The notes beneath the pieces were generated by a model that was not told the origin of the DNA, searched no databases, and worked only from the letters and a program-made list of their open reading frames with translations. From assembly GCA_036874045.1 (NCBI GenBank), contig CM072339.1:8997501-9061500 (forward strand): 64,000 bases of DNA. Reading direction: 5' to 3'. Positions 2,125-28,629 of this stretch are shown here, one piece after another; positions within the stretch are counted from its first letter, which is position 1; each line of letters begins with the position of its first letter. The translations under genes and the position numbers were made by a program. This DNA is from Cymodocea nodosa. Its lineage: Eukaryota > Streptophyta > Magnoliopsida > Alismatales > Cymodoceaceae.

Positions 2125-2969
2125 ATGACTTCTTTTCATAGAGAGGGTCAAAACATCCATCATCCTCCCCTGTTTGATGGTATTAACTATAATTACTTGA
2201 AAAACAGGATGGAATGTTTCCTCAGAAGCTCAGATGTGAGTCTATGGAAAATGGTGGTTCTAGGAACACCTATTCCACTTAGTCATGAGGATGACTAGAC
2301 TAAGGAGGATGAGAGAATCATCCAAATGGATGCTCAAGGGTTGAATATTATTTACTATGCCTTATCTGTTGAACAATATAATAAAGTTTTAGCTTGTAAA
2401 TCTGCTTACGAGGCTTGGAACACTCTTCAAATAACCTTTGAAGGAACCAGCCAAGTGAAAGACACAAAAATCAGCATTTTACTTAGAAAGCTTGAATTAT
2501 TTAAAATGCTTGATGATGAAACTATCACTGATATGTTTTCTAGATTCATTGAGATTATTAATGGCTTAAGAGGTTTGAGAAAGGAATTTTTTGTCCGTGA
2601 ACAGGTGTAGAAAATTCTTAGAAGCTTAACTATGGAATGGAAGCAAAAGTCCACATCAATACAAGATTCCAAAGACCTCAACAAATACTCAGTAGAGGAT
2701 CTGATGGGCAATCTGCTGGCCCATGAAGTTCAAATGAAAGAATGGAAAGATGAGGAAGGAAGTGCTAAAAAGAAAACAGAAACGAAGAAAGAACTAGCCT
2801 TTCCATCAACTTAGGAACTTCAAAGCTCAGATGATGATGAAGTTATGCTATTGGTTAGAAAATTCAGAAAATGGATGAAGAAAAAGAACTAAGCCAGCAC
2901 ATCAAAAAGCAATACTCCAATATGCTTTAAATGCAAAAAGTAGGGACATATACAACCTGATTGTCCACT
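2125..2969 (+). pseudogene. gag: Element A: gag, first part (Copia)
   Basis: The encoded protein opens with the usual SIRE-like gag start, including a PLFDG-type motif followed by a region of the UBN2/gag-polypeptide kind. It ends at a CX2CX4HX4C zinc knuckle (2923-2964), which packages RNA. The knuckle is followed directly by element B, inserted next to the last cysteine codon. The gag resumes at 24062. The copy is a fossil with several breaks. The best evidence is its similarity in domain order to the gag of elements E and F in this window. Confidence 0.85.
2964..2969. repeat. Candidate target site duplication of element B (left)
   Basis: TCCACT here recurs at 24062-24067 on the other side of element B. 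Removing one copy and the element gives a continuous gag-like sequence. The exact LTR edge is uncertain by one or two bases, so the duplication may be 5 or 6 bp. Confidence 0.65.
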
Positions 2970-4814
2970 ATTCGTGTTTTCCCAGCACTACACTAGAAAA
3001 ACTTGGATTTGTTACTTCTATTTTTACTTAGTTAATTTATCTTTATGCCTATTCTTTCTTTTAGAAGTAAACAAACAACTTTTAATACAATTTAGATATT
3101 AATTCCAATTTGTACTTTAACTGCAAGTGCACAGTGTCTATTGTATCAGTGTGCAAGTACAGGTCGATCCCACAGGGAATTGCTGACGAATTTAAGAAAT
3201 GTTTGATTGTGAACAATTCAAATTTATATTCAATAAGCACTCCGTTGAGTTATAGTTAACTCAACGGACTAAGTTCGTTGAGTTATGACTAACTCAACGG
3301 ACTATCCTCGTGGACTTAAGTTAACTCCACGAGTCTGTCTCTTCTTTATAATACTGCTATTTATAGAGGAATTCGGCCAACCATTGGGCGATTCCACAGA
3401 TTGTAAATAACATCAATTAAGCTTTTTAATGCTAGTTAACATTGGATTTATCATTATGTAATACTAACATTCAGATGATTCAAATAGTAACCATTAAAAT
3501 CTTTAAGTTGTTTTGTACAAACCAATTTTAGTAAACTGTAAAATTAAAACTAACATAAAACAATCATAAAACTGATACAGATAACATTAATCACGATACA
3601 ACACAAACAATACAACACTCAAATACAACATACAAACAAAGATAAATTGTTTTTGGTATTTTTGTTTTTATGTGAACATGGAAATGGGCGAAAGGTGAAA
3701 TGTAAAGTAATTTCACTTGACAGTAAATACTTCCGACACTACTTGCAACGCGATTACACCACTAAAAATTGAACCACTTACAATTTTGTCTCCTCTCCCT
3801 ATAGAATTGCAAGATGATCTCCTCTTCAGCATATAGGCATCAACCCGAAGCCAAGGCTAAAAGCTTTACGATCTCCTGAAATATCAGTCGGCGCTTGGTG
3901 AAAATGTCTTCCCTTCCTGCGACGCGATCACTCCTCACAATGGTTGTCAGGCATTGTGTTTGGCTCGGAATCGACCCGACATCAGGCAAGTATCCTCACA
4001 GACCTCTGATGATTGGTGATTATGGTGTTGATAACGATGGTTGGTGTGATACTTCAGAGAATCGCCGATACCGTCTGCAGAAAGCTCGATGCTCCTCTGT
4101 ATACACTCGCTGTCCATCGATCACACTCTTTCTTTTTTTCTTCTTTTCTTTTATATTTCTTCAGTGGTAAATGCTTCTGCTTAAATGATCGGTTGGATTT
4201 CCTTCATTCAGATCAACAGCGATAATTTCTTTCTCCCTGCACGATTGAATTCCTACGTGATACGTGCGAACATGGTTTTTCCTTCCAACTATCTGTTCCT
4301 GCAACCGCTACAGTGGCATATTAGAAAATATATAGTCCGTGGAGTTACAGATAACTCAACGGACTTCCTTCGTTGATTTAACTATAAAACACGTGCAAAA
4401 ATAACAACTTAAGTTTATAACGCTAACCTAACGCGTTGCCTTAGTGTATTTTCATGTAACTCAACGCATGCAGTTATACTAACTTAACGAGTTATAACGT
4501 AAGTAAATCTACCAGCTCTCAATACATGTCAGCAGTAGTTTAAACATAAAATAACATTTCGGAGAGTTACAGGTATAACTATCCGATGCTCAGATACATT
4601 TTCGGATACTTAAGAATTTCACAGCCTGCAATTTACCAACAGTTCATAAATGTACTAAATTAACATTAATTCCCCAAAATTAAGCAGATTCTTCAATTAA
4701 AGCATATAACAGTGCAATTATAACATAATGGCTTAATTCTCATATGATAAGCTAAATATTATGAAATTAACCATCATTTAACCGTTAATAATATGCACTT
4801 TTTCATTCTAAACA
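2970..4814 (-). repeat. Element B: 3' LTR
   Basis: This is the downstream LTR on the minus strand, about 1845 bp. It begins (minus) TGTTTAGAATG at 4814 and ends near 2970. It matches the 5' LTR at 22234-24061 except for roughly 65-70 substitutions and a few indels. One indel is an extra palindrome unit near 3268-3300. The LTR holds a CACGTG site at 4390-4395 and a 58-bp block (4390-4447) identical to the LTR of Copia E. Confidence 0.9.
3242..3339. repeat. Palindrome cluster in element B 3' LTR
   Basis: Three palindromes lie in a row. 3242-3267 has 11-bp perfect arms (CCGTTGAGTTA / TAACTCAACGG) and a 4-base loop. 3276-3299 has 10-bp perfect arms and a 4-base loop. About 3308-3334 is a looser one with CTCGTGGA / TCCACGAG outer arms. 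The other LTR of the same element (22503-22566) has one unit fewer. Each CCGTTG/CAACGG end fits the CNGTTR consensus of plant MYB sites, which is an inference about use. Confidence 0.85.
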
Positions 4815-4829
4815 CTTCCCCCATACCTA
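4815..4829 (-). other. Element B: polypurine tract
   Basis: On the minus strand TAGGTATGGGGGAAG abuts the start of the 3' LTR. This is the expected plus-strand primer site for reverse transcription. Element C has the same site at 26806-26820. Confidence 0.8.
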
Positions 4830-6109
4830 AATTTTGCTAGTTCCTTAGCAAACTAAGATCTAATTAATTGGTCTTTCAAAAAGTGCTAGAATTAATACTT
4901 CCCCTTTTGTTTTATTTCTTCTGTTTAGCATAAACATATATTCTGTATGTTTCAGTAATCAACCTGCAAAGATATTTAGAATATATGTAAATTACATACA
5001 AAGTATATCATCTTCATATAGGTGTTAATTATATTATCGTTTGTTCTTCTTTTCATCATCTGTAATCCTGAATTTTCCAATAAGTTTTCTAGAAGAAATT
5101 TCAACAACATACGAATCAAAGTACAATCCAATTCAATCTGATTAAGACAAGTAGAATAAAGAATTGTATTTCCATTAAACAACTTCAAAAGTCAATTCCA
5201 GATTCATATTTCAGCAATTCTAGATAACAGAAAATATACTCGATTCATAAGATATCTGTATTTCACAAAACACTTGTATCTTTTCAGAACAGTATATGTT
5301 TTTTTTTTTTTTTTGGTGTACTTTAAAAGTTAATTTGACAAGCTTGAATCATGCAAGAGCTTTCTAATGTACCCATGTAACGAGCTTTCAGTCAACAATC
5401 CCAGATCTGATCAAGATCTTAGGTTGCCAGATTTTCAGAGTCCTTTTTCAGGTCAACAATCCTTACATACCTATCTACTCAAGTACAAAAGGCTCGTGAT
5501 CAAACAAGTCAATAAACTCTCAAGGTTTTTTTTTTTTTTTCTAAAAATAAATGCACACACAAAACAAAGCATTAATCACATACTGTATATGCACGTATTT
5601 CATTAATACAGATGCAGTAAAACACCAATCTCATATAATCCTACTTCTATCATTTACTAAAAATATGAATCCATAACAATAAGCTCATACTTTATCTGTA
5701 GTTTAATAAGATCTACACAAATCATTCTACAGGTTCAATCAGTCAAAGTAAATGTATCTTTCATCATATGTGTTTCATTTAATCTAGAATTCACATCTCA
5801 GCTCCTTCAGGACTTTAGATAATTTTCTGATTAAGCATTAAATATTCTGATTTCATTTTAAAATCGTGAAACTGTTAAACTCATGAAATTCAGAAAAATC
5901 ATAAGATACTATCTAGATTTACATAAATAATAAATTATATAGCATCTTCTATAGCCTTCTAAATATAACATTCAAGCAGTTTATAAAAATTTTACAGTCT
6001 CAATTATCGGATAGTTACAGCAAGTTCATAAAAATTTTCAATTTCCTCAAAACTTTGCAGTACCATTTTAATTCCTTTAATTAACAAACTTACATGGCTG
6101 TTACTTTAA
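4830..6109 (-). other. Element B: 3' noncoding module shared with Copia E
   Basis: No convincing coding sequence is seen. Read on the minus strand, the sequence aligns by eye through most of its length with element C (26820-28110) and, strikingly, with Copia E (about 53150-54215). The best block is minus-strand 5540-5330, which matches E at about 53630-53830 with few differences. Runs of A on the sense strand (5299-5316, 5527-5540) are longer here than in C. Function is unknown; position suggests a 3' untranslated region. Confidence 0.75.
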
Positions 6110-6150
6110 TTACCTCCCCCCCATACCTACATTTTGCATTGTCCTCAATG
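6110..6150 (-). other. Element B: internal purine tract
   Basis: On the minus strand an ACATTGAGGACAATGC motif is followed by GGTATGGGGGGAGG. This pair resembles the internal G-rich tract that Athila elements commonly carry downstream of integrase. Here it lies after the F-box gene instead. Element C keeps it at about 28115-28160. It may act as a second plus-strand primer; that is inference. Confidence 0.55.
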
Positions 6151-6568
6151 TAAAATATTTGACAATAAGTACAGTAATTGTAGCAGACATGAATAAAGTT
6201 TTGTTTGATTTAAAATTTAGGAAAAGTAATTGGTTACATACCTTGTTCCATTTGTATCTCTTTCTACATATTCCGATTTTTGATTCTGAAAAACTTTTCA
6301 TTCCCAGATAAACACAGAATATAAAACAAAATAACATTTAACAAATATTAATAAATCAGTGTCTTGTGTGGAACCCAGACTCCTATGCCTTTGGTGGCTC
6401 ACAAGCAAGCCAGTTGGTTTCCCAGAACAGATACCAACAAACTAGATTGATATTTTGTTTTGTTTGTTTTTTGTTTTTTTTTTATAAAATGAACATGAAA
6501 AACTTCAAAATTCTTCTTTTTTTTTTTCTAAAACTAAATGCAAAATACACAACATTAAACACACAAAA

Positions 6569-7714
6569 TCACAGCTTAAGAACATGATTGAAAAGTAGAA
6601 ACAAATGGAATAAATGTATTAGTCCAAGCAAACTTTTAGGCATAGTTCTTCTTGCTATTAATTTTGTTTTAATGCAGTTCTTGGTCCTTTTTAATTTGCA
6701 AACATGCAATATATTATAAATTCCAAATACGAGTGTATTACCATTAATGATATGTAATGCAGAAAGGGATCCTTTCTGGTTCCAGGGTAATGTAGCAGTT
6801 TCTATTTCTACATCTATTTCAATATACTCCTCTTCCCACTTCCATTCATTCATGTCTTCCATAATCCATATTTGAAATTTCATCAGTTCATCCCACCATC
6901 TTATTAGACATAAAGTAGGATCATCTTCTTCATTATACCATATTCCTATTTGAATTTTATTAAATTTTTCAGATGGTGGTTTAGCTATTTCATTCGGTAC
7001 AGGTAAAATTTCTGTATAATCATCGTAACTGTCTATGCTCACTATGTATAAATCAGATCTATATGCTATTGATATCTCCGTGACTAAATAAATATAACCA
7101 TCAAGTATGACATGTGTTTGGTTAATTAATGATTTCTGTCCTAGATATATTATAATGTTTTCATTCCAAGATCTGTTCAGAAAATTATACACACTTAAGC
7201 GTAAATCTTCACCCCAATTTCCTGTAGGTCTCCAATAATATAATTTTTCAGGAATTGTAGAATTTTTATCAGAAAATATTAAAGCTGACCCACAATTTTC
7301 AGTTGGTGCTTCAAATATATTAGGTCTTCCTATATTACATTCTTCTCCTGTTATAGGATTTCTTATCAAAATCTTAGGTAATGATAAACTTGCATACCTT
7401 GGTCTCGTCTTGTATATGATTAATCCTTCATCTATCCCCATAATATGACTCATTCCTTCTAATGCATTGGGTGGAATTCCAGTAGTTTCTTCCATAGCCA
7501 GATATTCATGGGTATTTGAACTACGATTAAATGACCTCCATATGAATCCATCTCTAATCTTAGTCATTTTTGCAACTTGTAGTCCTTGAAAATATTTTTC
7601 TTCGATATAGTCTTTAATTTCCTTTGATACACAACACATCCTGCATAGATCTTTAGCTGACAAGTTACTTAGTATTTCCCTTTATGCATCTAACGGTAAT
7701 TGCATTAATTCCAT
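6569..7714 (-). pseudogene. F-box/FBA gene carried by element B
   Basis: The predicted protein is about 380 residues, normal for plant F-box proteins with an F-box-associated (FBA) propeller. An F-box of about 40 residues starts at residue 5 and runs on through SAKDLCRMCCVSKEIKD. It is followed by FBA hallmarks: NPITGEE near the middle, GNWGEDLRLSVYNFLNRSW, and IWIMEDMNEWKWEEEY toward the C-terminus. F-box proteins recruit targets to SCF ubiquitin ligases through SKP1, in cytosol or nucleus. The gene is in the sense direction of the retroelement, between the intron-like segment and the purine tract. A second copy sits at the same place in element C, so capture came before the family spread. 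It is mostly open but probably not functional as it stands. Which host gene it came from is unknown. Confidence 0.8.
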
Positions 7715-7723
7715 TTGTCGATT

Positions 7724-9281
7724 CTGTAAAATAAAAACAAAAATTTAGCAAAGACAAAAATTAACATAACTACTACACACCCTCGTGGAGTTAAGGCATA
7801 ACTCAACAGACTAAGTTCGTTGAGTTAAAAATTAACTCTACGATACTATTAACTTAAAATAAAAATAAAAACATATATACATATAGATAGTTGCTTCAGA
7901 TATGCTGCTTCATTCAACTACCTTCCCAGAAGAGGTATCAATTTCATTAACCATTCTATTGACAGGATTAGGTATAGCTTGTATTGGCAATCCTCTAGTA
8001 GGTCTAACTTCCATTGGTTCCTTCTGTCTAAGTGGTATATTTCTATTCTGATTTTGATTTACAGCATTTCCAAATATAAATTCTAGACGATTATTTACTT
8101 GTTGGATTATCTTTTCTAATTTCTCTATTCTAACTCCTTGTTCAATTAATACTTCATAACTTATGTTCTTCTCATTTATATTTTCTCCTCCCTAGAAATT
8201 GTTGTTTCTCCAAGATAAATTCGGGTGATTTCTCCAATTAGGATTATAAGAATTTCCCAAGTTATCTCTCTGGTTTCTAGCATAAATAATATCTAAGTCA
8301 TTTATGTTTGTATTCTTTTCTGCTAGCTTTTGATTTAATGATAACTCTTCTATTTTCTTTGTTAATTCATTTAATTTCACCTCAAGCATAGTATTGGAAT
8401 CTATTTCATGCATTCCTCTTGGCAATAATCTTTTATCTACAATAGCTTCAGTCGAATTTTCCCACTGTGCAGTTATTTTTGCAAAATTTTCTAAATATGC
8501 CCATGCTTCTTCACTACATAATTTTAAAAATCCATTTTGACAAGTAGATTCTAATAAAGATTTCGTTGAAACATCTATGCCTTCATAAATTATGCCTATT
8601 AATTTGCTTTACTCATTGCATGATGTGGACATTGAGTTAGTAAATCTTTAAATCTTTCAAAATATTTCCAGAATGATTCATCCTATTTTTGGCTACACAT
8701 TAATATTTCTTTCTTCTTTTTAATCGTTTGATGTGTTGGATAGTATTTTTCCAGAAAAACAGAGCAAAATTCAGTTCATGTAGAAATTGAATCAGGCGAC
8801 AAAGTATATAACCATCTTTTAGCTGTATCTTTTAAAGCAAAAGAGATATATCTAAGTTTAATAGCATCTATACTCATGTTCGGCATTCTCATCATTTGAC
8901 AAACTTCGTTAAATTCTTTAAGGAAATAATAGGCATCCTCTCTTTCTAATCCATGAAAATGTGGCAATTGACTAATATAATTAGATTTCAGTTCAAACCT
9001 ATCTCCCTCAAAGTTTGGCAATCGAATACATGAAGGTTCATCAATTAATTTAGGATACAGAATCTCTCCTAATGGTTTTTCTACTAGAGTAGCCATCTCT
9101 ACGTTTTCTTTTAAAGAAAGGTTAGCTACACCCCAAAGAATTTCGTTAAAGTTCAGTTTAGAAAATTTTTCAGTACTCCTCTACAATGAAAATTCCTAGA
9201 TAGGTGTTCTTACTAATCGTTTAGTGCTTAGAGAACGAGTCCATGTACTCATAAATAAATAACAAAAGATTAATTACATAC
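7724..9281 (-). other. Intron-like segment of element B containing gag capsid
   Basis: On the minus strand the segment begins GTATGTAATTAATC after GACTG, a good plant 5' splice site. It ends TTTTTATTTTACAG before AATCGACAAATGG, a good 3' splice site with a pyrimidine tract. In element C the flanking sequences are joined precisely at these borders (29717/29718) and all 1558 bases are missing. The simplest reading is an intron, with C copied from a spliced RNA. Loss by chance deletion at exact GT/AG borders is much less likely. Confidence 0.75.
7910..9096 (-). pseudogene. gag: Athila-type gag capsid region, displaced to the 3' part of element B
   Basis: The start of the product carries PSCIRLPNFEGDRFELKS and then the retrotransposon gag domain (LPHFHGLEREDAYYFLKEF and AKRWLYTLSPDSI), the core of plant Gypsy capsids. 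Further on is the Athila gag signature with YNPNWRNHPNLSW, followed by a heptad-rich helix. No zinc knuckle is seen here; the family's knuckle is at the start of the 5' coding region (21918-21877). The region lies entirely inside the intron-like segment. It is a fossil with a few breaks. Its place, some 12 kb downstream of the zinc knuckle and past integrase, is unlike the usual gag-pol order. Confidence 0.8.
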
Positions 9282-9526
9282 CAGTCTAAAGCTTTCCATT
9301 CTATAAATATTTGTTGTCGTATGAAGGTTGAATCAGCTGCTTCTCCTTCCAGTTCTTCCAACGCTTTCTCCTTTCTCTTAAAAGTGCTGGTAACTCGTAA
9401 ATAACATTCTGTTTCATATATATACTGCGCATCCATAAAGTGAATAAATCTCGTTGCAAGAACGTGTCTTGCAACATGCATCGTGGTTCCTATTTTAATG
9501 GGTATATGTACCACTACTAATTTCAA
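9282..9526 (-). other. Short conserved open segment upstream of the intron-like segment
   Basis: An open frame of about 80 codons begins MKLVVVHIPIKIG and runs to the splice-like border. It is rich in basic residues and ends with an acidic ELEGEAADST stretch. The same DNA is present in element C (29718-29960) with many changes, and some of the frame is recognisable there. I do not recognise a family. It may be a leader exon of the F-box transcript rather than a protein gene. Confidence 0.35.
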
Positions 9527-9589
9527 ATTTTGGTAACCGCTAAACCAACGAAGTTTCGTTTGTGGTTAAAAGAATAACTGTTCTGCTTA

Positions 9590-9775
9590 ATCCACGAACT
9601 AACCTCGTTGAGTTACAAATTACTCAATAGAATACAGTCGGTTACTATTGCTAACTCCACGGACTAACTTCGTTGAGTTACAGATAACTCAACGGAGTGA
9701 CCTTATATTATATTACTGACCTCGTGGAGTTACGGTTAACTCAACGGAATTACTTCGTTGAGTTAACACTTGGCA
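9590..9775. repeat. Palindrome array in element B spacer
   Basis: A series of CGTTGAGTTA / TAACTCAACG and CGTGGAGTTA units. The clearest is 9671-9694, with perfect 10-bp arms and a 4-base loop. Similar arrays stand at the same place in element C (30030-30185) and in D (43405-43460). Confidence 0.8.
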
Positions 9776-9903
9776 ACTTCTAAGTTTCACTCTCGTAAGT
9801 TTTCTATTCTATTTTTTTTTCTTTATTTTTTTGTTTTTCATTCTGCTAACTGTAATAAAGTTAAATCTGTCAGTAATGCCTCATTTTGATTAAAATACAT
9901 TTA

Positions 9904-9926
9904 GGGCGTGTTAGTGCATGACGGAA
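9904..9926 (+). repeat. Harbinger left terminal inverted repeat
   Basis: It reads GGGCGTGTTAGTGCATGACG followed by GAA. It pairs with the reverse complement of 14166-14188 at 20 of 23 positions. Subterminal copies of the GACGGAAA-type motif follow up to about 10050, including a second TTAGTGCAGGACGG at about 10015-10028. Confidence 0.9.
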
Positions 9927-10060
9927 AATTCTGATGGAAAGGAAAAGGAAAATTCTGACGGAAAGGAAATGGAAAATTTGTAACGGAAAGGAAAAGGAAA
10001 ATTCTAAGAGGGGTTTAGTGCAGGACGGAAAATTCTGATGGAAATTCTGACAAAAGTTTA
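9920..10060 (+). repeat. Harbinger subterminal repeats
   Basis: The motif GGAAAATTCTGA(C/T)GGAAAGG recurs about five times. Repeats of this kind near the ends of Harbinger elements are commonly transposase or ORF1 binding sites; that use is inferred. Confidence 0.6.
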
Positions 10061-10123
10061 TTACAACTAATATTCGAAAAATACAAATACATCTTAATTG
10101 AAATATTACAATACGAAATAATA

Positions 10124-11523
10124 TCATCTAGTTCTTCCATCCCACATTGCCATCATCATATCTTCTCGCATCTTATCTGCCATTTCTTTTCTTTGTTCTT
10201 GAGTCATTCGAACATGGGCATTGCTTTCTATATGTATCTCTCCCATTGGTTGTATGTCATCAATAATATTTAACTCTTCCAACTCATCTAGCAGGTCTTC
10301 AAGTAAATCTTCCTTATCAGTCTTACGAATAAAATTATGAAGCAAAAAACATGCGATGACAATCTTTACTTGTGTTTCATATGGATATGGCATTTGACCA
10401 CGTAATATTGAAAATCGATGTTTCACAACTCCAAATGTACGCTCAATGACTGTTCTCAATTGTGAATGTCTGTAGTTGAAATTTTCTACAGCATTACGAG
10501 GAACTCTATCATTAACATAATCAGATAGATGGTATCTTACACCTCGATATGGACAAATATATTCTGGTCGATTTGGATATCCAGCATCAACTAAGTAAAA
10601 CTTACCTGTATAAAAAAAATATTAGTATGGTGATGTCTTCATAACTTGTAGAAGTGGAAAACACATTTACCTGGTAGAACTTGAAAACCATTAGGTCTAG
10701 TAACTGCATCTTGGAGAATACGAGCATCAGCAACTGATCCTTCCCAACCAGCTAAAATATATGTAAATTCCATTCAAAATTACATGCTGCCATTACATTT
10801 TGAGAAAATTCACCTTTCCTGTTCCTAAATCTTGTTGTTTCTTGTCCATAAATAGTTGCTTTGATATGTGTACCATCAATAGCTCCAATACAATCCTATA
10901 AACATGCACTTTTATTTTGATATTGACTAAAATAACATTAAAGATAAGGAAACACCAAAGGTGTGAAAATGTACCTTAAAATATGGGTACACATTTGAGT
11001 CTTGACGAATTCGACTTGGTGTTTCAAATGAAGGTCTTGCTAGAAGAACATGATTTAGTCGTAATACAGCATTCAACACTTCATTAAAGTATTTACTAAC
11101 TGTCCAACTTGATCGACTAAATCGTTCTATAGTTACTCCATACCTTTGATTTTGCCCAATTGTCACAAGGAACATGGCAAACTTCTCTTCTACACTGATA
11201 TTGTTGGTATCTTTCAGCACTTCTTCCCTCCTCATTAATTCACAAAAACCATTGAAAACACTTTGACTCATTCTATAAATCTTTCGGCAATTGTAAACTT
11301 GATGTGGTAAAGAAGGATCTAGTAATCTTCTTATATAATCTGCACCTTCTTTACTATAAATACGACTTGTACTTGAAAACAAAGTTGAGGTACTTGTAAT
11401 CCCTACTAAAATATTCCAAAAAGCAAGTAAACGTCTTCACCTTCTTCTAGCATGTTCTTCCTCTTCTTCAAATAACATCAATGTGTTATTTACTAGTTCG
11501 TCAAAATCCTCTTCAAAATTCAT
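10124..11523 (-). pseudogene. Harbinger transposase (ORF2, DDE_4 nuclease)
   Basis: This is the catalytic subunit of PIF/Harbinger, which cuts and rejoins the element at TTA-type targets. The start at 11523 gives an acidic MNFEEDFDEL opening. A helix-turn-helix-like region follows, with RRLLDPSLPHQVYNCRKIYR and later RYGVTIERFSRSSWTVSKYF. The three catalytic parts are visible: DCIGAIDGTH (near 10893-10866), LVDAGYPN (near 10590), and the NYRHSQLRTVIERTFG glutamate block (near 10470-10430). Introns with GT and AG ends are likely at about 10974-10894 and 10670-10608. One in-frame TGA lies near 11440 and a one-base frame change near 10780, so this copy is damaged. The C-terminus ends MMMAMWDGRTR. 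Confidence 0.85.
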
Positions 11524-11728
11524 CGTCACCTACAAAATTTCATGTCCAAACATATTACAAGGCTGTAATACAAATAAACATATTACATGAAATCATTCCA
11601 CAATTAATAGAACATAATAAAATATGATAAACAAACATCAATAATAATATCATTCCACATTTCCTTGTCCAAACAAAAAGTAGTTACATCATACATCTAA
11701 TACAAAAAAAAAAACATGTAAATCATCT

Positions 11729-12751
11729 TTAGTCTTCCATCTTTTCTAAGTGAAACTTCAACCATCCTTGTCGCATTTCTTTTGGAATTGATAGAAATAT
11801 TTTACTGATTTCTTGCTTTTGGAATAATTGAGTAGCTTTATATCGATCAGTCATAGATAGATCTTCAATCTCAAATATTGAAGCAATAGCTTCATCTAAA
11901 AAAGACTCAGACTTCTTTTGCCATGCAAACATTTCCTTCTTCCATGCAAACATTTCCTTCTTACATACAAACATCTCCTTTTGTATGTGAACCATCTCTC
12001 TCATTTGTTCATTACGTACCTCACCATTAACAGTATCTTGTTCACACAAAGTAAGAAAAGCTCGTGACGTATCTTTCAAACTTTCTGCTATCATTTGTTG
12101 AGATTCTGCATGAGGGCGTGCTCGCTTCCCCTTTTTCCTCTGCTCCAATGGAACATGTGCACTTCCTCCTGAACTAGGAGGTATGTCAGAATCGAGGTCC
12201 ATTCCATCTTGTGTAATGTCTAGAGTAAATGTATTTGGAACTTGAGTGTTTGGTACAATGTCTACTTCTTCTGCCTGTCATAAATCAAACATGATTTTCC
12301 CTTGCAGCTTTCACACTCTGGATGTGCCTACATAAAATTACAATATATATTAAGAAAAATTCAATACAATTGGGATAATCTTAAAGTATGTAAATAAAAA
12401 TCTTACCTTAATAAACTCCTTCCATATCTCTTCATCTATATCAGTATACCCTTGTATGAAATTCCATCCCCATCCACTCTGATTTGCAATTTTTGAGTAG
12501 TTACGATAAATTTGTCTCCATGTCTTTAAGCGACTTTCCACATTCTTCTTTGTAATACATGCATTTCTTCTATTATTGTATTTTTCAACTACTTCATCCC
12601 AAGTGCTCCCTTTTATCTTTCCATCTTGGGTTTTTTTGTTTCCCTCATTTAATACTTCTGACAAAATATCTAAAAAGAATGCATCTGCATCAGCATTCCA
12701 AGTCATATAAGTTCGTCCTCCATTACCTCGTCCTCTATCAAGAGTACTCAT
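11729..12751 (-). CDS. Harbinger ORF1, Myb/SANT-like DNA-binding protein
   Basis: This is the accessory protein of plant PIF/Harbinger elements, which binds DNA and helps bring the transposase to the nucleus and to the ends. Exon 1 (12751 to about 12408) carries a Myb/SANT-like domain of the L10-interacting type, with TYMTWNADADAFFLDIL, GSTWDEVVEKYN and VESRLKTWRQIYRNY. A likely intron follows (GTAAGATTTT to TTATGTAG, about 12407-12332). The last part (12202-11729) has a basic KKGKRARPH signal and repeated KEMFAWKKEMFAWQ helices. It ends with the conserved IFLSIPKEMRQGWLKFHLE block. The frame between about 12330 and 12203 is uncertain. Confidence 0.8.
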
Positions 12752-12779
12752 TTACTACATAAGATCAAATATTAATTAA

Positions 12780-13185
12780 CTGCTCCGATAGAAGATTATG
12801 AGATTTGCAAAAACATAATATCTTTTGTCAATCTACTCAATATTTGAAAACATACTAAGCACATTTTCGTGGATCAAAACATACTAACAAACAAATACAT
12901 AATTTCAGTACATTTGCTTAAATTACAATAACCACATTTTCGTGGATCAAAACATACCAACTGAACAAAACAAATACATAATTTCAATATCAACGGCAGA
13001 TTGATCAAAACATTTAGTATCAAGACAAAGAGCTATCAACGACAGATTGAACAAAGTATTCAGTATCAACGACATTATACTTACAAACATTATACTAACA
13101 AACAAATACATATGATGAAAACATACATTACATTATACTAACAAACATACATTACATTATACTAACAAACAAATACATACGATGA
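12780..13185. repeat. AT-rich direct repeats upstream of Harbinger ORF1
   Basis: A segment with CACATTTTCGTGGATCAAAA occurs twice (about 12860 and 12932), each followed by an AAACAAATACATAATTTCA motif. CATTATACTAACAAACA units recur four times in 13070-13175. No gene is seen. This is the 5' side of ORF1 and may hold its promoter. Confidence 0.65.
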
Positions 13186-13199
13186 AAATAGAATTTCAA

Positions 13200-14010
13200 A
13201 CAGAATTTACAAAGGCACAAACCGAGCGTCAGCAATGGTAGCAATCGCAGTGGATGCGGCAGCAGCAGCGGTAGTGATTGTGAGTGGTCGCGACGGATGC
13301 AGGGGTTGAGAGCTTCGGATGCGGCGGCAGCAGCAGATGCAGCGACACCAATGGATGCGGCAACAACGACCGTGAGCGACAACTGCAACGGTTGCGACTA
13401 ATGCAAGGGCTACGAGCTTCGGATGCGGCGACAGCGGCGGATGTAGTGGTAGCAACCGATGTGGCAGGAACGACTGTGAGTGACGACTGCAACGGTTGTG
13501 AGTGGTCGCGACGAATGCGGGGGCTACGAGCTTCGGATGCAGCGATAGCGGCAGCGACAAATGCGGCAGCAGCGACCGTGAGCAACGACTGCAACGGTTG
13601 CGAGCGATCACGACAAATGTGAGGGCTGCGAGCTTCGGATGCAGCGGCGGATGTTGCGGCACCGACGGATGCGAGGGCTACGAGCTTCGGATGCAGCGGT
13701 AGCGGCAGCGACGGATGCGACAACAGCGACCGTGAGCAACGACTGCAACGGTTGCGAGCGTTCGCGACAGATGTGAGGGCTGCGAGCTTCGGATGCAGCG
13801 GCGGATGTTGCGGCACCGACGGATGTGAGGGCTACGAGCTTCGGATGCAGCGGTAGCGGCAGCGACAGATGCCGCAGCAGCGACCGTGAGCAACGACTGC
13901 AACGGTTGCGAGCGATCGCGACAGATGTGAGGGTTGCGAGCTTTGGATGCAGTGGCGGATGTTGCGGCACCGACGGATGCGAGCGGTCGCGATGGATGCA
14001 GGGGTGAAAA
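13200..14010. repeat. GC-rich minisatellite inside the Harbinger element
   Basis: A strongly GC- and CpG-rich block stands in AT-rich surroundings. GAGCTTCGGATGC or a near match recurs at about 13308, 13408, 13526, 13629, 13681, 13781, 13836 and 13936. The right part repeats as a composite unit of about 155 bp made of 52-55 and 100-103 bp pieces. Units are rich in GCGGC and GCAACGACTGCAACGGTTGC. Long open frames on both strands follow from the repeat and the lack of A/T stops, and are not taken as genes. Confidence 0.85.
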
Positions 14011-14165
14011 ATTTTCCGAACATGGAAGGTTGGAAATGAGGGAAGGGTAAAGGTAAAATTACATATTTATATGTCGGTAAATTTACACTTTCCTTTTCCT
14101 TCGATATTATGCATACTAATGACATTCTAACGGAATTCAACAATTTTCCTTTCCATCAGTTGAAT

Positions 14166-14188
14166 TCCGTCAGGCACTAACCCCCCCT
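14166..14188 (-). repeat. Harbinger right terminal inverted repeat
   Basis: Read on the minus strand it begins GGGGGGGTTAGTGCCTGACG. It matches the left end at 20 of 23 positions and is followed outside by the TTA duplication. Confidence 0.9.
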
Positions 14189-14191
14189 TAA

Positions 14192-14483
14192 ATCTGAACA
14201 TTATATAAAGATTTAAATTGCAGGTCATTTTATGTTATGCAGAATTTACATTTTACCTTATAACATGCAAAAAATTTTTAAGCAGTTATCCTGTCATTCA
14301 GCAAATTGTAAATCTGTTACATATTCATAAAGTTCCACAAATTACATAATATTCAATAAATTCCATTCATTTCACATTCAAATACGTATGAAAATTGCAT
14401 CTGAAAAATTATATTCATTAATATGAATCAATTACATTACAAGTACATCATACAATTTTACACAAGTAGACGAACAATACAAT
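14192..14483 (-). other. Spacer after the accessory ORF of element B
   Basis: AT-rich sequence without a gene. It is collinear with C (about 30290-30617) and D (42986-43310), so it belongs to the Gypsy family and probably is the 3' untranslated part of the accessory ORF transcript. Confidence 0.6.
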
Positions 14484-16704
14484 TTAATCTCTATGCCTAA
14501 GTTCATCTACTTCCTTCTGGAGTTTTTCTAATTGCTGCTCTAATTGATTTATCCTCTCTACTGCTCCTGCAATTTCTCTAGAAGGTACAGCTAATTCTGC
14601 AGCTACAAAATTTCTGTATTCTTTCACTGAAATGGTTCTAGATCTTATCCTTTTTGATGTCCATTTAGTGAAATCAATACTATCCACCATCAGCAGTGGA
14701 ATCAAATCTCCATAAAATAATTTCTTCTTCACTGTTTTCAGCTTGGAGATAAAAACTGCAGACCAATTTATTTGGATCTTATTTACAACTGCATATGTGG
14801 CCCATTTGACAAATTGACTTAATTCTATGTCATGGCCCTGTCGTTGATAGACATTCTTAATCAGAATGTTAGCTACCATGTGTGCTTTACCATTTAAATG
14901 CTTCAATCTGTTTAATAATGGCACACCAGGATTGATAGCTAAACAATCCTTAATTTGCTGCTCAGTCCATTCAATTGCAGTTGTATCTTCCAAAATTTTT
15001 GTTCCTTCATTCTTTAAACCAAATATGTTGTAGAGAAGCTCTAGTGTTATCTGTGCATCAGCTTCCTCCACGTTTGAAATTAATTCTCCTTCTCCTTCTC
15101 TTAAATTTGCATAGAAACAAGGCACTAAATTCTCATATACTGCATGCCCTCTTTCTTGAGATATAAATTGCAGTAGACCTTGGAATTCAAATAGATCTTT
15201 GATTTCTTGCATTCCATCCTAATTTACTGGTCTACTGTAAATAATATCGTAACCCCTTATTTCTTGGTATTTGGTATAAGCTTACTGACTACAAAAATGT
15301 ACTTCATTCAAAATTGTTGTTTCAGTCGGGTCAGGAAGGTAACTTTGTTGCTCCAAAGGGGTTTGTTTTTGCTCTTCCTCCAGCATAGGCTGCATTTGGA
15401 CATTCTCTTCAGATTCCTGAATTTTTGCTTTTGCTTTTGTCTGTGGTGGTGAGCCGGCAGAACTCTCCACTCTGTCTTGAATTCTTTCCATAATTTGCTG
15501 AAGAGTTTCTTGCTCTTCAGTGGAATCTGTGAAATTATTTTTGTCCAAATGGCTTCTTTCAGCCTCTTCATTTTCTACTCTTTCTTCTTCCTCCTGACTA
15601 CCAATCTATTCTGTTACTGTTCTTTCTGATTCTGTAACAGATTGGGATGGAGTCATGGGCAATTCAGTTTCTACTCTAATTTCTGTTTCTTCTTGTACAG
15701 ACTGTAAACTAATTTCAGCCTGATTTTTTTTCTTTTCTTTGCTCCTCCTCAGATTCGGATAGCAGGTTAATAAAAATCTGCTCCACAGGCCCTATAAAAA
15801 TTGGTACTTCAGATTTAATTTCTTCATAATCAGGCACTTTTTCTTTTTCTTTCTTTTTTCTGATTAGTTGTGCCTGTTCTTCCTCTTCATCTTCTGAAAT
15901 TAAATCTACAAAAATAGGCTCTACAGGCTTTCGAACCACAGGTACTAGCTCTTCCTATTTAATTCTTCCAATAATTGCTGGTCTCGAAGAACCAGCTTTA
16001 GCTTTTTTTGCAGCATATCTAACAACAGTTCTGGCAGTAGCTTCTTGATGCTGTTCCACTTTAATTTTATATTGGGCTTTCAACTTTTCTATAGCCCACT
16101 TTTTGTATAGTGCATCAAACACCAGGTGTGCTTTAGCCACTGCCAAATCTTCTAATTCTCCTTGGTTTTTTCCAACTTGAACCAGTTCTGCAAATTCTCT
16201 TATTTCTTCTTCAATCGAAGGCCCCATCATTTCTGCTCGTGCCAATGGCTTAAATGGTGGAATTGAAGGTCCAGACTACTGCTCCTCAAGAACAGGTCTT
16301 TCAGTAGTTGGTTCCTCCCGTTCTTTAGTTGCCTCTTCATTTGCTTTCCTTTCTTGCTCCCAGATCACCCGTTTAGCTTGTCTACAGATTCGTCTTTTGA
16401 ACCAGAGTCGGGACTTACGTTGGATTAATTCTAGGGCAACTTCATTACTTGGCCTTATTTGTCTTTCCTTGCTTATAGCTATTTCTGTTGCTATTTTGAT
16501 TCATGTTTCCATTATTTGAGGTATTCGTATATCCATATCTACTAAATCTCTTCTAAACTTGAAAAGTTCTGATTCTACCTTCTGTAGCTCTTTCTCTTTT
16601 GTCGTATTTCTGATCTTCTATCGCGTGTGCCACTCTTCTAATTCCTTTAGAAATTCTGATGTATCAACAACATCTTCCTAGAATTCAGGCATCATCTTCC
16701 TCAT
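14484..16704 (-). pseudogene. Element B accessory ORF after pol (putative plant transposon protein domain)
   Basis: The reading starts at ATG 16704, in the same position as in D. The N-terminal half is charged and coiled-coil-like, with a basic KRRICRQAKRV patch and an acidic ISEDEEEEQAQLIRKKKEKE block seen twice in related form. The C-terminal third is globular, with IKDLFEFQGLLQFIS, CFYANLREGEG, IFGLKNEG, NRLKHLNGKAHMVANILIKN, VNKIQINWSAVFISKLK and KLFYGDLIPLLM. That pattern fits the putative plant transposon protein domain found after pol in Athila elements. It ends in a leucine-zipper-like helix. The ORF stands where Athila env-like genes lie, but I see no signal peptide or membrane segment. 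It is broken in several places. Copies are in C and D, and a relative is in Copia E. Confidence 0.8.
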
Positions 16705-17325
16705 CGTGAAGTTACACAACAACACAGAATCGCTCTGATTTCTACTGTTCTAGATTCTAAATGATTTGTCGGATAATGCTCTTAAAACCCTAGGTTTTAG
16801 TTTAAATAAGCACTAAGTTTAGGCGGGTAATCGGGTCATTTTTCGAACCAATTATTACTATTTTATCTGCGGTCTTAGCTATAGTACTCTGTTGTGTTAT
16901 AGGTAACTCAACGGAATAAGCTCGTTGACTAACTCAAGACTTAACGGAGTATGCTCGTTGAGTTAAGCGTAACTCAACGGACTCCCCCGTACAAGCAATT
17001 ATAATAATAAAAATATTACAGAGAATAGTTTTTCTATTTTTTTACTGGTTTAACAAATACTATGCTTCGGTCAGACCTAAATATTTTTTATTTTTTTATT
17101 TTTCTTTCGGTTGAACCGATACTATGTTTCGGTAAAACCAAATTTTTTTTAATGTTCCGGTCATACCGATGCTACACTTCGGTCAGACCTAAATATTTTT
17201 TAATTTTACGGTCATACCAATGGATCCAATCAGTTGAACTGCAACTATTTTTATGTTTTATATATATTTTTAATGTTTTTTTTATATTTTTATATATATA
17301 TATAAACATAAAAACTGATTTCTTA
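16705..17325. repeat. Pol-accessory ORF spacer of element B with two palindrome types
   Basis: No gene is seen. From 16890 to 16985 lie AGTTA...TAACT palindromes; 16956-16979 has perfect 10-bp arms. From about 17045 to 17235 a second type appears, with CGGT...ACCG ends such as CGGTTGAACCG, and TTCGGTCAGACCTAAATATT found twice. D keeps both types at 40262-40575. The spacer may hold signals for expressing the downstream ORF, which is inference. Confidence 0.75.
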
Positions 17326-20300
17326 CTAAGTAAAACTCGAGTAGTTCTCTACTCTGACTTCTTCTATAATTCCAAAGGAGTTTCTTGGTGTTTTCAGAAT
17401 AGGTTTAAGTCTTTGTCCATTTACTTTAAATATATTCTGATTTTTAGGATTTTCAATTTCAATAGCTCCATAAGGATAAACATTTCGAACTATGTAAGGT
17501 TCTGCCCATCTAGATCTTAATTTTCCTAGATAGTTATGGAGTCTAGCCATATAAAGATATACTTCTTGTCCTATTTCAAAGTTTTTAGGAATAATTTTTC
17601 TATCATGCAAGAATTTAATTTTTGTCTTTTTCTCTTATAGTCTTTGAATAAGCTTCATTTCTAAATTCTTCTAATTCAATTAGTTGCATTTTCCTATTTT
17701 CAGCAGCTTGATTTAAATTAGTGTTCAGAGTTTTTAATGCCCAATAAGCTTTATGTTCTATTTCAGCAGGTAAATGACAACTTTTCCAAATACTAGCCTA
17801 AAAGGTGACATACCTAAGCTCGTTTTATAAGTAGTTCTACAAGCCCAAAGTGCATCAATCAATCTATTAGCCCAACCTGTTCTAGTAGGATTTACTACTT
17901 TTTCCAAGATTAATTTAATTTGTTTGTTTGCACTTTCTACTTGTCCACTTGTTTGCGGATGATATGATGTTGCAATTTTGTGGTTTATTCCATATTTCTT
18001 CATTAAGGCTTCAAAACTTCTATTACAGAAATGAGTTCCTCTATCACTGATAATAGCTTTAGGTATTCCAAATCTGGCAAATATATTTGATCTTATAAAT
18101 TGTATTACCACTTTGTTATCATTAGTTTTTGTAGGAATAACTTCTATCCATTTAGATACATAATCCACCCCCAACAATATGTAATTAAATTGATTAGACA
18201 TAGGAAATGGACCCATAAAATCTATTCCCCACACATCAAATATTTCAACCTCAACAATAGGATTAAGAGGCATCATATTCCTCTTTGATATTCTTCCTAT
18301 TTGTTGACATCTTAAACAACTTAAGCAATATTTATGAGCATCTTTGAATAGTGTTGGCCAACAAAACCCACATTGCAGAATTTTTGCAATAGTTTTCCCT
18401 GAACCAAAATGTCCTCGACAAGCTTGGTCATGACAGAAAGACAATATGCTCGAATATTCAGTTTCTAGAACACACCTCCTTAAAACCAGATCAAGACATT
18501 TCTTAAATAAGTAAGGGTCTTCCCAATAGTATTATTTTACTCTTGAGAAAAACAATTTCTTATCCTGTCTATTCCAATCCTTAGGTGTTAAACCAGTAAC
18601 TAAGTAATTAACTATGTCTGCATACCAAGGCATTGTGTTGATGGTCATTAATTGTTCATCAGGAAAATTATCCTTAATTTCAATATTTGATTTTTCAATT
18701 TGTAATCTTGATAAATGATCTGCTACTACATTCTCACAACCTTTTGTATCTTTAATTTCAAGATCGAATTCTTGCAATAATAATATCCATCGGATCAATC
18801 TAGGTTTAGTTTCTTTTTTCTTTATTAGATGTTTTAGAGCTGAATGATCCGTGTATACTATTACTTTAGCTCCAATCAAATATGATCTAAACTTTTCTAA
18901 AGCAAACACAACAGCTAATAATTCTTTTTCAGTAGTTGTGTAATTAACTTGAGCATCATTTAAGGTTTTGCTTGCATAATGAATCACTCTAGGAGATTTT
19001 TCTATTTTCTGTCGTAACACTGCTCCTATAGCAAAATCAGAAGCATCGCACATTAATTCAAATGGATGGTTCCAATTAGGTGCTTGAATTATAGGAGTTG
19101 AAATTAAGCTAGTCTTAAGTCTGAAAAATGCTTCCTTGCAATTTTTACCAAAGTTAAATGGAACATCTTTTAATAGATTAGTTAAAGGTCTAGCTATCTT
19201 GCTAAAGTCTTTAATAAATCTTCTATAAAAACCAGCATGTCCTAGAATTGATCTAATATCTTTTACTGATTTAGGTTGGTAGATTAGAAATTACTTCTAT
19301 TTTAGCTTTATCTACTTCCAACCCTTTTTTAGAAACAACATGCCCTAAGACTATTCCTTGTTTAACCATGAAGTGACATTTTTTCCAATTTAAAACCAGA
19401 TTTTTTTCCACACAGCGTTTTAATATTTGGTCTAAATTGCTTAAACACACTTCATATAAGTTGCCATATACAGTAAAATCATCCATAAATATTTCTAAAA
19501 ATTCATCGGTTATTCCAGGAAATATGCCCTGCACACACCTTTGAAAGGTAGCTAGTGCATTGCATAATCTGAATGGCATTCTTTTAAAAGCATAAGTTCC
19601 ATTAGGACAGGTGAAAGTTGTTTTCTCTTGATCCCCTAATGCTACTGAATTTTATTATACCTTGAATACCCGTCTAGGAAACAAAAATATTCTTGCCCTA
19701 CTAATCTTTCCAGCATTTGATCTATAAAAGGTAAGGGAAAATGATCTTTCCTAGTCACAGCATTCAGCTTTCTATAGTCTATACATACTCTCCAACCTGA
19801 TTGAATTCTAGTAGGTATCAAGTCTTGACTTTCATTCCTAATAACTGTTAATCCTGATTTCTTGGGAACTACATGGATTGGACTAACCCACGAGCTATTA
19901 GAAATCGGATATATTATATCATTATCTAACCATTTCACTATTTCCTTCCTGACTACTTCCTTAAGATTTGGATTTAATCTCCTCTCAAGAATTCTAACAG
20001 GTTTAGCATTCTCTTCTAAATATATGTGGTGACAGCATAAAGTTGAACTTAACCCTTTTATATCAGTCATAGTCCATCATATTGCTTCTTTATAACTTTT
20101 TACATCTTTTAATTTAGCTATTTGATCCTCTTTCAAATTTGAAGCAATAATGATTGGACATGTACGTTTATCCTCCAGAAATATATAGGTTAATTCAAGA
20201 GGTAAAGGTTTTAATTCTAAATGCTGCCCATCAGAAGCTAAAGCTCCTAATTGAACATCATCATTTTTTAAATTAATTTCTTCCTGATCTCCTTCTATAT

Positions 20301-21990
20301 TTATGCTTTCACTTTCTTCTAAAGTTTCAGAATTGATTTGCCTATTTAATTCTTCTTGAATCACATCATCTAACATATCTCCTTCATCCTCTAAAAAGTC
20401 TATGGTATGTAAGGACATTTCTAACTCCTCAAACCTTTCTGGTTTGAAAATATTTAATTGAGTATCCTCATTACCATATGCTAACTTCATTACTCCAGTT
20501 TTACAATTTATAACAGCCCTTGATGTTGCTAAAAATGGCCTTCCCAAAATTAAAGATGTATCACTATTTTTATGATTAATTTGTTGGGAATCCAAAATTA
20601 CAATATCAATAGGATATATAAAATTCTTGATTTTAATTAAGACATCCTCTATTTTTCCTCTAGGGTATCTTATACTTCTATCAGCTAATTGAATAACCGT
20701 ACTAGTAGGAGTTAAGCCTTCTAATCCTAAGGATGCAAATATATCACTTGGCATAACATTTATACCTGCACCTAAGTCTATTAAGGTTCTTTCTAGAATG
20801 GTATTTCCTATGGTGCATGATATAACAGGGATTCCAGGATTAGATAACTTTTTAGGAATTTGTGGCAGAAATAGGAAACTACTTTGCTCAGCTAAAAAGA
20901 CCTTTCTAAGAACTTTTCACTCTCTTTTTTTAGTACACCAATCCTTCAGAAATTTAGCACAAGGTGGCATATTCTGCAATAGATTTAACAAAGGAATGTT
21001 AACTTGTACTTTTTCAAAAATTTCTCTGATTTTTTCTTGTTTTTCAGGAATTGTTTGTTGTAATCTTTCAGGATAGGGTGCTAAAGATTTTGATTTCAAA
21101 GACTCTTTTTCTTTCAGTTGATTTGTTTGATTATTTTTAGCTTCAATTGCAGATTCAGATTGTTCTTCAGTGATTTCTAGATTTTCAGTTATTACATTTT
21201 CATTATCATTTTGATTTTTACTCTTGTCCACCTTCATATCATTTTCATTTTGAGTTCTTGGTGGTATATCAGTTCCAGATCTTAATGTTATACATACATC
21301 TTCTAGATTTTCGTTACTTTCATGATGTTTTTGTATATCATTTTCGTGATTATGATCTTCAATTGTTTTTAGTTTTAAAGTGCATTCTTTAAATTCTCTT
21401 ACATTTGTGTTTTCTGTTTGTTGTATATTTTGCAAGTTGTGCAGGTTTATAACATTATAATTTTCATTGTCCTATTGTAAAACTTGTATTTTCATTGCAT
21501 TTTTGTCTAATGCTTTTAATTTTGTTTCTAGATCATCTAATTTCATTGTATTCAATTTTTGATCAATTTTCTTTATGGCTTTTTCAATTTCATAAATTAT
21601 ATCCTGTTTAGGTTCTGAATATGCCTCCTTATAGTTTAATTGGTTGACTTCTTGTTGTTGACACACAAAGTATTCCAGTTTGTCCAGATTTTGCTCTATA
21701 CTATGCTCCAGTCTATCATAGCTATCCCAAACTTCAGTGTCTCTCATCATATTACACATTCTATACTGACCATCAGTTGGGTAAACTATAGGATTCTCAT
21801 ACTCGGCTCTATTATATTGAGGATAATTCATTTGTTGTTCATGGGATCTATCAATCTGTAAATGTCTCAATTTCAAACAATCAGAAATGTCGTGTCCTTC
21901 AGAATTGCAGAATTCACATATGCTAATTAAAGGTTTCAGAAATGTTTGAGCATAAGCATATGCCATATTCTCAATTATAGAAGAAAACAC
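17326..21990 (-). pseudogene. pol: Element B zinc knuckle-protease-RT-RNase H-integrase region (Athila-like)
   Basis: Domains in order on the minus strand are as follows. A CX2CX4HX4C zinc knuckle lies near the start (21918-21877), with no capsid domain before it. The Athila-type linker is visible as PYPERLQQTIPEKQ and NMPPCAKFLKDW. The retropepsin motif DLGAG is at 20778-20764. Reverse transcriptase has WRVCIDYRKLNAVTRKDHFP, and FMDDF at 19489-19475. RNase H has [12 protein letters not shown] and [11 protein letters not shown]. Integrase has its zinc finger near 18370-18300, then GIDFMGPFP, SDRGTHF and GQVESANKQIK carrying the D, D and E. The C-terminus has [20 protein letters not shown], as is usual in Athila. 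The enzymes copy element RNA and integrate the DNA. The region has several breaks and is not active as it stands. Confidence 0.92.
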
Positions 21991-22029
21991 ACAACTCTAA
22001 CTATTAAAATGAAATAGCTCTAACAGTTG

Positions 22030-22208
22030 CTTCAATTCAATTTAGTTCAATTCAATTCAGTTCAATTCAGTTCAATTCAATTCAGTTCAATTCAATTCAA
22101 TTCAATTCAATTCAGTTCAATTCAATTCAATTCAATTCAATTCAGTTCAATTCAATTCAATTCAATTCAGTTCAATTCAATTCAATTCAATTCAGTTCAA
22201 TTCAATTC
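22030..22208. repeat. Pentanucleotide repeat in the leader of element B
   Basis: About 175 bp of ATTCA units with scattered GTTCA variants (TTGAA on the sense strand) lies between the primer site and the first coding sequence. D has only a short run of the same units (about 35434-35475), so the tract grew in B. Confidence 0.95.
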
Positions 22209-22224
22209 CACGGCAACGGCGCCA
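22206..22224 (-). other. Element B: primer binding site
   Basis: On the minus strand TGGCGCCGTTGCCGTGGA lies about nine bases inside the 5' LTR end. This is the Athila/Tat type of primer site, usually assigned to tRNA-Asp. Confidence 0.85.
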
Positions 22225-22233
22225 TAAAACTTG

Positions 22234-24768: not shown

Positions 24769-24794
24769 CCTAGGCAACAACGCCAGAAAACTTG
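24769..24794 (-). other. Relic primer site on the outer side of element C's LTR
   Basis: On the minus strand the LTR is followed by ACAAGTTTTCTGGCGTTGTT and then GCCTAGG. This is a decayed TGGCGCCGTTGCCGGGG site. A primer site belongs next to a 5' LTR, yet this LTR serves as the 3' LTR of C. A tandem or circular ancestor with the left part lost would explain it. Confidence 0.6.
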
Positions 24795-28160: not shown

Positions 28161-28629
28161 TTACAATAAATACAGTAATTATAGCAGACATGAATATTGT
28201 TTCGTTGACTTAGCATCTAACTCAACGAACTTAGTTGAAATGTAAATTCAAGATAAGTAATCAATTACATACCTCGTCCTTTTGTATCTCCTTCAATATC
28301 TTCTAATTTTTTATTCTGAAAAACTTTTCATTCACACATAAAAGCAAAGTATATAACAAAATAATAATTTAACTTGTTAAATTAGTGTCTTGTGTGGAAC
28401 CTAGGCTCCTATGCCTTTGGTGGCTCACAAGCAAGCCAATTGGTTTCCCAGAATAGATACCAACAAATTGGATTGATATTTTGTTTTTCTTTTTTTTTTA
28501 TAGAATAAAACTAAAACTAAAATTTTTCTTTTCAAAAAAAAATGTAGAATACACACAACATTAAAAGCACAGAATCATAGTTTAAAAACATGATTGAAAA
28601 GTAGTAACAAATGGAATAAACGTGTCAAT
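28161..28629 (-). other. Element C: stretch between F-box gene and internal purine tract
   Basis: No gene is seen. It is collinear with B 6150-6568. One extra TCGTTGACTTAGCATCTAAC-type palindrome lies near 28201-28235. A TTGGTGGCTCACAAGCAAGC stretch near 28420 is well kept between B and C. Confidence 0.5.

Follow-up and report, generated by a model that had tools for sequence, protein, structure and literature searches.

The stretch analysed here, called the window below, comprises 64,000 nucleotides of Cymodocea nodosa DNA (contig CM072339.1 of assembly GCA_036874045.1, positions 8,997,501 to 9,061,500) and contains nested plant long terminal repeat (LTR) retrotransposons. Three of these, B, C and D, are considered, with particular attention to a segment of B at 7724..9281 which carries a capsid (CA) gene. 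Element B is a whole insertion on the minus strand (2964..24066), recognised by its LTR pair and by the target site duplication TCCAC (2964-2968 and 24062-24066). Its 5′ LTR lies at 22232..24061 and its 3′ LTR at 2969..4814, with a purine-rich stretch just inside (about 4815-4827); 22234-24061 and 2971-4814 match at 93.7%, and the Kimura two-parameter distance between the LTRs is 0.039. The primer binding site TGGCGCCGTTGCCG is at 22211..22224. The 5′ open reading frame (ORF) region (17268..21966) is decayed; Pfam on pieces and tblastn give the order nucleocapsid (NC), protease, reverse transcriptase (RT), RNase H and integrase, without a capsid part, and a zinc knuckle CEFCNSEGHDISDC, which D has too, is found near the N-terminus of the ORF (21877..21918). 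Downstream of integrase come, in this order, an extra ORF region (14188..16899) with weak, sub-cut-off Pfam similarity to Transposase_32 (PF20167), a leader (9282..9903), a 1558-bp segment (7724..9281), an F-box gene (6569..7714) and the 3′ LTR, all on the minus strand. The leader holds a putative promoter, with a TATA-like site at about 9418-9424, and exon 1, with an ATG at 9297-9299. Element C (24769..32192, minus strand), defined by alignment and represented by its 3′ part, is interrupted by D and is without the 1558-bp segment.

A capsid cistron between splice-like borders

The segment starts with GTATGTAATT and ends with TTTTTATTTTACAG, between the leader and the F-box gene; the intron it would form has the structure GTATGT ... 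TTTTACAG. In B its borders read ..GACTG/GTATGT....TTTACAG/AATCGAC.., and in C the flanks are fused at 29717/29718 (minus strand) as ..GACTG/AATCAC.., which is exactly at the borders of B, the placement being ambiguous by one base only, a shared G. The B-C alignment is about 82% identical in both flanking blocks (9282-9822 and 4601-7727). Two points of a preliminary description of this DNA were thereby confirmed, namely that a GT/AG-bordered 1558-bp segment with a gag capsid region lies between leader and F-box gene in B, and that C joins its flanks precisely.

When both ends were scored with plant splice-site frequencies, a single one of the 15860 same-length stretches of the B internal region scored as well, and this was the segment itself (46 of the 15860 have any GT..AG at their ends). 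The donor score was equalled by 8, and the acceptor score by 2, of 17417 positions in the element, and a branch-like CTAAA is present at 7744-7748, about 24 nt 5′ of the acceptor. These border scores, together with the genome junction counts given below, rule out a chance indel as the origin of the B/C difference.

The capsid assignment was made with Pfam: the segment matches Retrotrans_gag (PF03732) with an E value of 1.9e-14, in-frame stops being read as X. The CA cistron (7910..9096, minus strand) has start and stop codons of its own inside the intron and carries, in the B copy, three in-frame stops and one frame shift. Its C-terminal piece matches 5 distant Gag proteins among 349 candidates, with 28-36% identity. 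The F-box domain (PF00646) was detected with E values of 2.7e-10 in C and 1.3e-5 in B, where the gene begins with a start codon 9 nt past the acceptor and has one stop near this start. A protein search with the F-box of C yielded 130 candidates, none at E 1e-3, and the fold prediction (mean predicted local distance difference test score of 31) was unusable.

Precise presence and absence in the genome

The assembly from which the window is taken (374.6 Mb, 28 contigs) was then searched for further copies. At least 40 copies of the segment, B included, were scored at 90-100% identity; 34 of the 40 match positions 1-1558, five 1-1557 and one 1-1551. A precise junction of the two flanks (at most 3 mismatches) occurs at 209 places, compared to 0 for a reversed-pattern control. 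There are 895 exon-1 ends of one exact form, and among the first 100 listed (contigs C1-C2), 87 run on into the intron with GT, 12 are joined precisely to the F-box and 1 has another continuation. Conversely, 411 F-box starts of one exact form are present, and among the first 100 listed (contigs C1-C5), 81 follow the intron end, 19 follow exon 1 and 0 follow anything else; 4 of these 19 have a substitution among the final bases of exon 1. Both listings were tallied by eye, twice. The donor GT is kept at 87 of 87 retained sites listed, and GTATGT in 13 of 13 sampled copies; the acceptor AG is kept at 73 of 81 and in 12 of 13, respectively. In the divergent copies L042 to L044 (90-92% identity) and in L011n the segment is present and is bounded by the same GT..AG. 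The odd exon-1 junction, L054 (G000:C1:15664900-15666100), joins exon 1 exactly at its end to unrelated sequence that begins with TTTTTCAGAATCA; no F-box match was found downstream of it, and it is a recombinant.

Scoring the family copies for the segment and its borders, a check proposed in the preliminary description, thus showed borders that hardly vary, with 1 odd case in 100 and 0 in 100 among the sites listed. Judged from sequence, the GT-AG ends with conserved sites and the precise absence in other copies are those of a spliceosomal intron. Precise loss through a spliced, reverse-transcribed RNA is well supported, as is the earlier proposal that C itself arose in this way, given the 209 junctions, the rarity of odd borders and the pairing of C with an intron-bearing copy described next.

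Several trees were built to ask how many losses occurred. A 33-row tree required 5 changes, 3 of them forced, and suffered from long-branch trouble. With the upstream flank only (30 rows, three having been dropped for broken flanks), 5 changes were needed, 1 forced. In a 21-row tree, 5 changes were required when both flanks were used, 2 of them being forced; the downstream flank gave 4, of which 1 forced. In the 24-row both-flank tree, from which S_L034 and S_L036 were dropped (broken flanks), to which five divergent intron-bearing rows were added and from which 12 copies having the upstream flank only were left out, 6 changes were needed, of which 4 forced, and C paired with the intron-bearing L044 at 100/99. 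L024 is in no tree, its piece stopping just short of the donor, and a grouping of I_L008 with S_L030 was given no weight, since the upstream flanks of the two end near the same point of the leader. With both flanks, the approximately unbiased (AU) test rejected a single intronless clade (p 6.5e-10; 1.5e-7 after trimming; 2.8e-49 without C). Since the 24-row tree rejects a single clade, precise loss was probably recurrent.

Could a single retroposition of a spliced RNA have founded one intronless subfamily, from which template switching or gene conversion spread the junction? In the 21-row tree 9 of the 13 intronless rows, C included, cluster together, a single intronless clade is compatible with the 30-row upstream-flank tree (p 0.294), and recombination among Athila families is documented (PMC2410132, available part). 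Recombination between co-packaged RNAs could indeed spread one loss, and C stands next to L044 only if L044 is in the tree, falling otherwise among the intronless rows. The both-flank AU tests, which reject one clade both with and without C, and the strongly supported pairing of C with L044 nevertheless make a single event unlikely in our opinion.

The length of the RNA templates was approached by probing nine intronless copies 7.4-9.0 kb upstream. Three had an LTR, a primer binding site region and an NC ORF at the expected distance; of the other six, three had LTR pieces that were differently arranged, and in three no family sequence was found. The presence of these 5′ parts in place means that the templates of those three copies were genome-length. 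C, for its part, keeps the extra ORF and the 3′ LTR. At least these three copies and C would thus go back to long RNAs, or to recombination with such an RNA.

A divided Gag and a putative splicing switch

With the intronic CA as query, tblastn detected no other capsid in the window, ruling out an overlooked 5′ one. Nor was CA found at the 5′ end of any of the 14 pieces that keep the LTR, primer binding site and NC, out of 20 ten-kilobase pieces taken upstream of genome copies. Among these 20, CA matches were limited to L011, where the 3′ part of a neighbouring copy is hit, and L015, which belongs to another family of the same genome and has a canonical Gag with a knuckle (46% identity over the first CA piece and 32% over the second). 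The 5′ ORF of B, of D and of 14 of the 20 upstream pieces begins with the zinc-knuckle part, and the start MAYAY.. with a full knuckle is found in 11 of the 20. The GAG (CA-NC) arrangement upstream of protease occurs neither in B and D nor in the 14 pieces keeping their 5′ end, the knuckle part standing there alone.

The missing part can be located by comparison with related proteins. In the five related Gags the knuckle is placed between a coiled coil and YNPNWRNHPNLSW (with one residue fewer in one of them), as it is in L015 and in Malus P0010; this motif and the primer site we take to be Athila-like. No knuckle is present in the corresponding stretch of the intronic CA in any of 13 copies. 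The 5′ ORF has the knuckle, lacks the YNP motif, and continues with an ITLRSG..PERLQ..CAKFLKD part, as follows in P0005. A knuckle-first ORF without CA is also found in another source, on a 2210-bp JGI contig encoding P0009 (523 aa); scans of viral contigs with CA and integrase gave no match. As no other capsid is found in the family and the knuckle part starts the 5′ ORF, Gag is split, a point beyond the preliminary description, with CA alone in a 3′ intron and NC opening the 5′ ORF for protease, RT, RNase H and integrase.

Is the intronic frame maintained as a gene? In all 13 copies sampled, the CA frame has 1-7 stops per 395 codons, compared to 38-49 in the other two frames. Ratios of nonsynonymous to synonymous substitutions (dN/dS), computed against eight close copies with shifted-frame controls, were 0.97 for L041, 0.46 for L042, 0.43 for L043, 0.22 for L044 and 0.39 for L011n, and 0.74 for young pairs. 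An excess of third-position changes was clear in L044 (161, 167, 381) and moderate in L011n (204, 133, 285). For comparison, the extra ORF gave 0.19 (B-C) and 0.24 (B-D) and NC 0.33, all below both shifted frames, and the F-box gene over its whole length gave 0.38 between C and B, again below both.

These values bear on the view that the intronic capsid is hitch-hiking debris, all Gag being taken from canonical families of the genome. Such a family is present (L015), stops interrupt the CA of each of the 13 copies, and gag-less parasitic elements do exist, such as BARE2 (PMC3735527, available part). Debris would hardly keep one of three frames nearly open in 13 of 13 copies with a dN/dS of 0.22 for L044, nor lose its knuckle where the 5′ ORF supplies one, nor preserve, at 677 places in the genome, an exact 20-base, acceptor-like stretch just before CA, and we hold this explanation to be improbable. 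Very improbable, in turn, is a CA-only protein acting as a copy-number regulator of the particles of other families rather than as the family's own shell. Yeast Ty1 p22 is a precedent, and a CA that lacks NC and follows a separate TATA-like site would suit such a role; the family has yielded no second CA, however, so that this reading leaves it without a shell of its own. Finally, gain of the CA segment by an originally intronless leader/F-box unit, without any splicing, draws on the divergence of the segment-less C (about 82% to B) and on ACTG/ACAG at the two ends as a possible imperfect 4-bp duplication, and is hardly tenable. The divergent L042-L044 and L011n have the same segment ends, C groups with L044, which bears the intron, the segment is exactly missing at 209 places and on several branches, and few positions in the element score as high as the donor and the acceptor.

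The layout around the donor suggests how one region might serve two products. An exon-1 ATG lies 18 nt 5′ of the donor in 34 of 38 copies, C being an exception; only splicing brings it into the F-box frame, and unspliced its frame ends after nine codons in B. A TATA-like site is found 140-144 nt 5′ of the donor in 36 of 38 copies, C and L044 included. At the acceptor-like stretch before CA, native upstream sequence was present in 99 of 100 places listed of the 677, and altered in the other one, so that no trace of a spliced CA message was seen at these places. The suggestion in the preliminary description that the choice between capsid and F-box expression is made by splicing fits this anatomy. 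An RNA started at the TATA-like promoter that precedes exon 1, or genomic RNA that keeps the intron, would provide CA when unspliced, and the same internal or genomic RNA, once spliced, would provide the F-box protein. Genome-length RNA would sometimes be spliced, packaged and reverse-transcribed, giving intronless copies, and the resulting CA-less elements would then depend on CA from intron-bearing relatives.

Taken together, we find it probable that a large Athila-like Ty3/gypsy family with a split Gag has, in this segment, a spliceosomal intron, that intronless copies arose through spliced RNA, and that a putative CA/F-box switch is built on it. A number of results weigh against this reading, besides the upstream-flank tree and the shifting position of C. 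The terminal AG is lost in 8 of 81 listed retained acceptors and in 1 of 13 sampled copies, and in two of the three intronless copies with a 5′ end the NC start is found with an altered knuckle. No stop-free CA frame exists among the 13 copies; third-position excess is absent in L041-L043 and in young pairs, and shifted frames are sometimes as low, so that the case for CA constraint lies mainly in the openness of the frame and in L044. The first 390 nt of the F-box gene are under no clear constraint (dN/dS of 0.53-1.14 against close copies, 0.76 for young pairs, shifted frames sometimes lower). P0009, lastly, comes from a contig of no more than 2210 bp.

A bolder version is put forward tentatively: this may be a split-Gag lineage with its capsid in an alternatively retained intron, in which one splicing choice sets capsid versus F-box (a ubiquitin-ligase adaptor) and each reverse-transcribed spliced genome founds a capsid-less parasite. 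If true, the family generates its own defective interfering elements. Independently of this version, the family offers a natural intron-loss assay, in which each precise junction records either splicing then reverse transcription or inheritance from a copy formed in that way; the frequency at which spliced genomic RNA is packaged could therefore be estimated from DNA.

Other features and relation to known systems

Element D (32193..43476, plus strand) has a 5′ LTR with a nested 1.55-kb insert, a capsid-less 5′ ORF from about 35545 and the extra ORF; its 3′ end is lost. Its Pfam domains, RVT_1 and RT_RNaseH (37754-38590) and Integrase_H2C2 and rve (38986-39660), are in the order RT, RNase H, integrase. 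In B the protease (20916-20077) and RT (20076-19642) pieces adjoin directly, with no intron between. Archaeal-type RNase H, the Tat marker, was not found above cut-off in the pol pieces scanned, which did not include every stretch. In B, (TTCAA/TTCAG)n tandem repeats (22031-22210) occupy the whole interval from the primer binding site to the 5′ ORF; this stretch is much shorter in D. A DNA transposon, presumably PIF/Harbinger-like, is inserted in B between extra ORF and leader (9904..14187, minus strand; DDE_Tnp_4 and a Myb/SANT ORF by alignment and Pfam), and is absent from C and D.

The 1.55-kb sequence stands alone inside the D 5′ LTR (33432-34980), and a second copy (44151-45703) is followed by the primer-site-like GGTATCAGAG; we take it to be a copia-type LTR. 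A minisatellite-like unit with GTTGAGTTA / TAACTCAAC occurs at 44 places in the window (e.g. 3244-3298, 7799-7827, 9607-9765 and 46565-46669), in gypsy LTRs, leader, intron and copia LTRs, and the breaks of D (43476), L008 and L030 all fall in the leader stretch that holds it. A Ty1/copia element has, 3′ of pol, about 800 bp (53350-54189, plus strand) that are 72-76% identical to B 4963-5770 and C 26989-27801 (minus strand), in the same sense, a 3′ module common to the Ty1/copia and Ty3/gypsy superfamilies. The copia 3′ ORF (54703-56874, plus strand) and the gypsy extra ORF (14484-15218, minus strand) share 35% identity over 205 aa, and both have weak, sub-cut-off similarity to PF20167, meaning that the extra ORF is also common to both superfamilies.

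Foamy viruses likewise produce Gag and Pol from separate RNAs; there Gag is at the 5′ end and is not split into CA and NC-Pol. Another close system is the Athila clade (plant Ty3/gypsy, OTA superclade), which has the same protease-RT-RNase H-integrase order and a long 3′ region with an extra ORF; it differs from the present family, where CA is 3′ of integrase in an intron and NC opens the 5′ ORF. In Arabidopsis, according to the available part of PMC2410132, all potentially autonomous Athilas (those with pol) have gag too, and families recombine and may cooperate. Ogre elements (Tat), LTR retrotransposons as well, contain an intron that only a fraction of their RNA loses by splicing (PMC6317226, available part); that intron lies between GAG-PROT and RT, whereas here it is 3′ of integrase and holds the capsid gene. 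In BARE (Ty1/copia), spliced RNA favours Gag, and BARE1 particles package BARE2, an element unable to produce Gag (PMC3735527, same part); here, in contrast, splicing removes the capsid, and spliced copies occur in the genome. Grande resembles the family in having a gene with its own promoter in a long 3′ region (cited in PMC11963269); Retand differs, its 3′ ORFs being mostly antisense and the sense ones without known domain, none being said to be Gag in the part of that article available. Retrosat2, with an extra ORF0 ahead of gag-pol (PMC3485330, available part), was considered and set aside as not similar. In the open-licence literature, partly available, where absence is weak evidence, no element was found whose capsid gene sits in an intron downstream of integrase.

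A reference survey of plant Ty3/gypsy elements gives the order GAG-PROT-RT-RH-INT (RH, RNase H; INT, integrase), classifies elements by Gag ahead of protease and, in its available part, removes unexpected domain orders as likely mispredictions (PMC6317226). A family of at least hundreds of copies breaks this Gag-first order, and a knuckle-first relative, P0009, is present in another source, which suggests that domain order can vary and that elements of this kind may go unnoticed in annotation.
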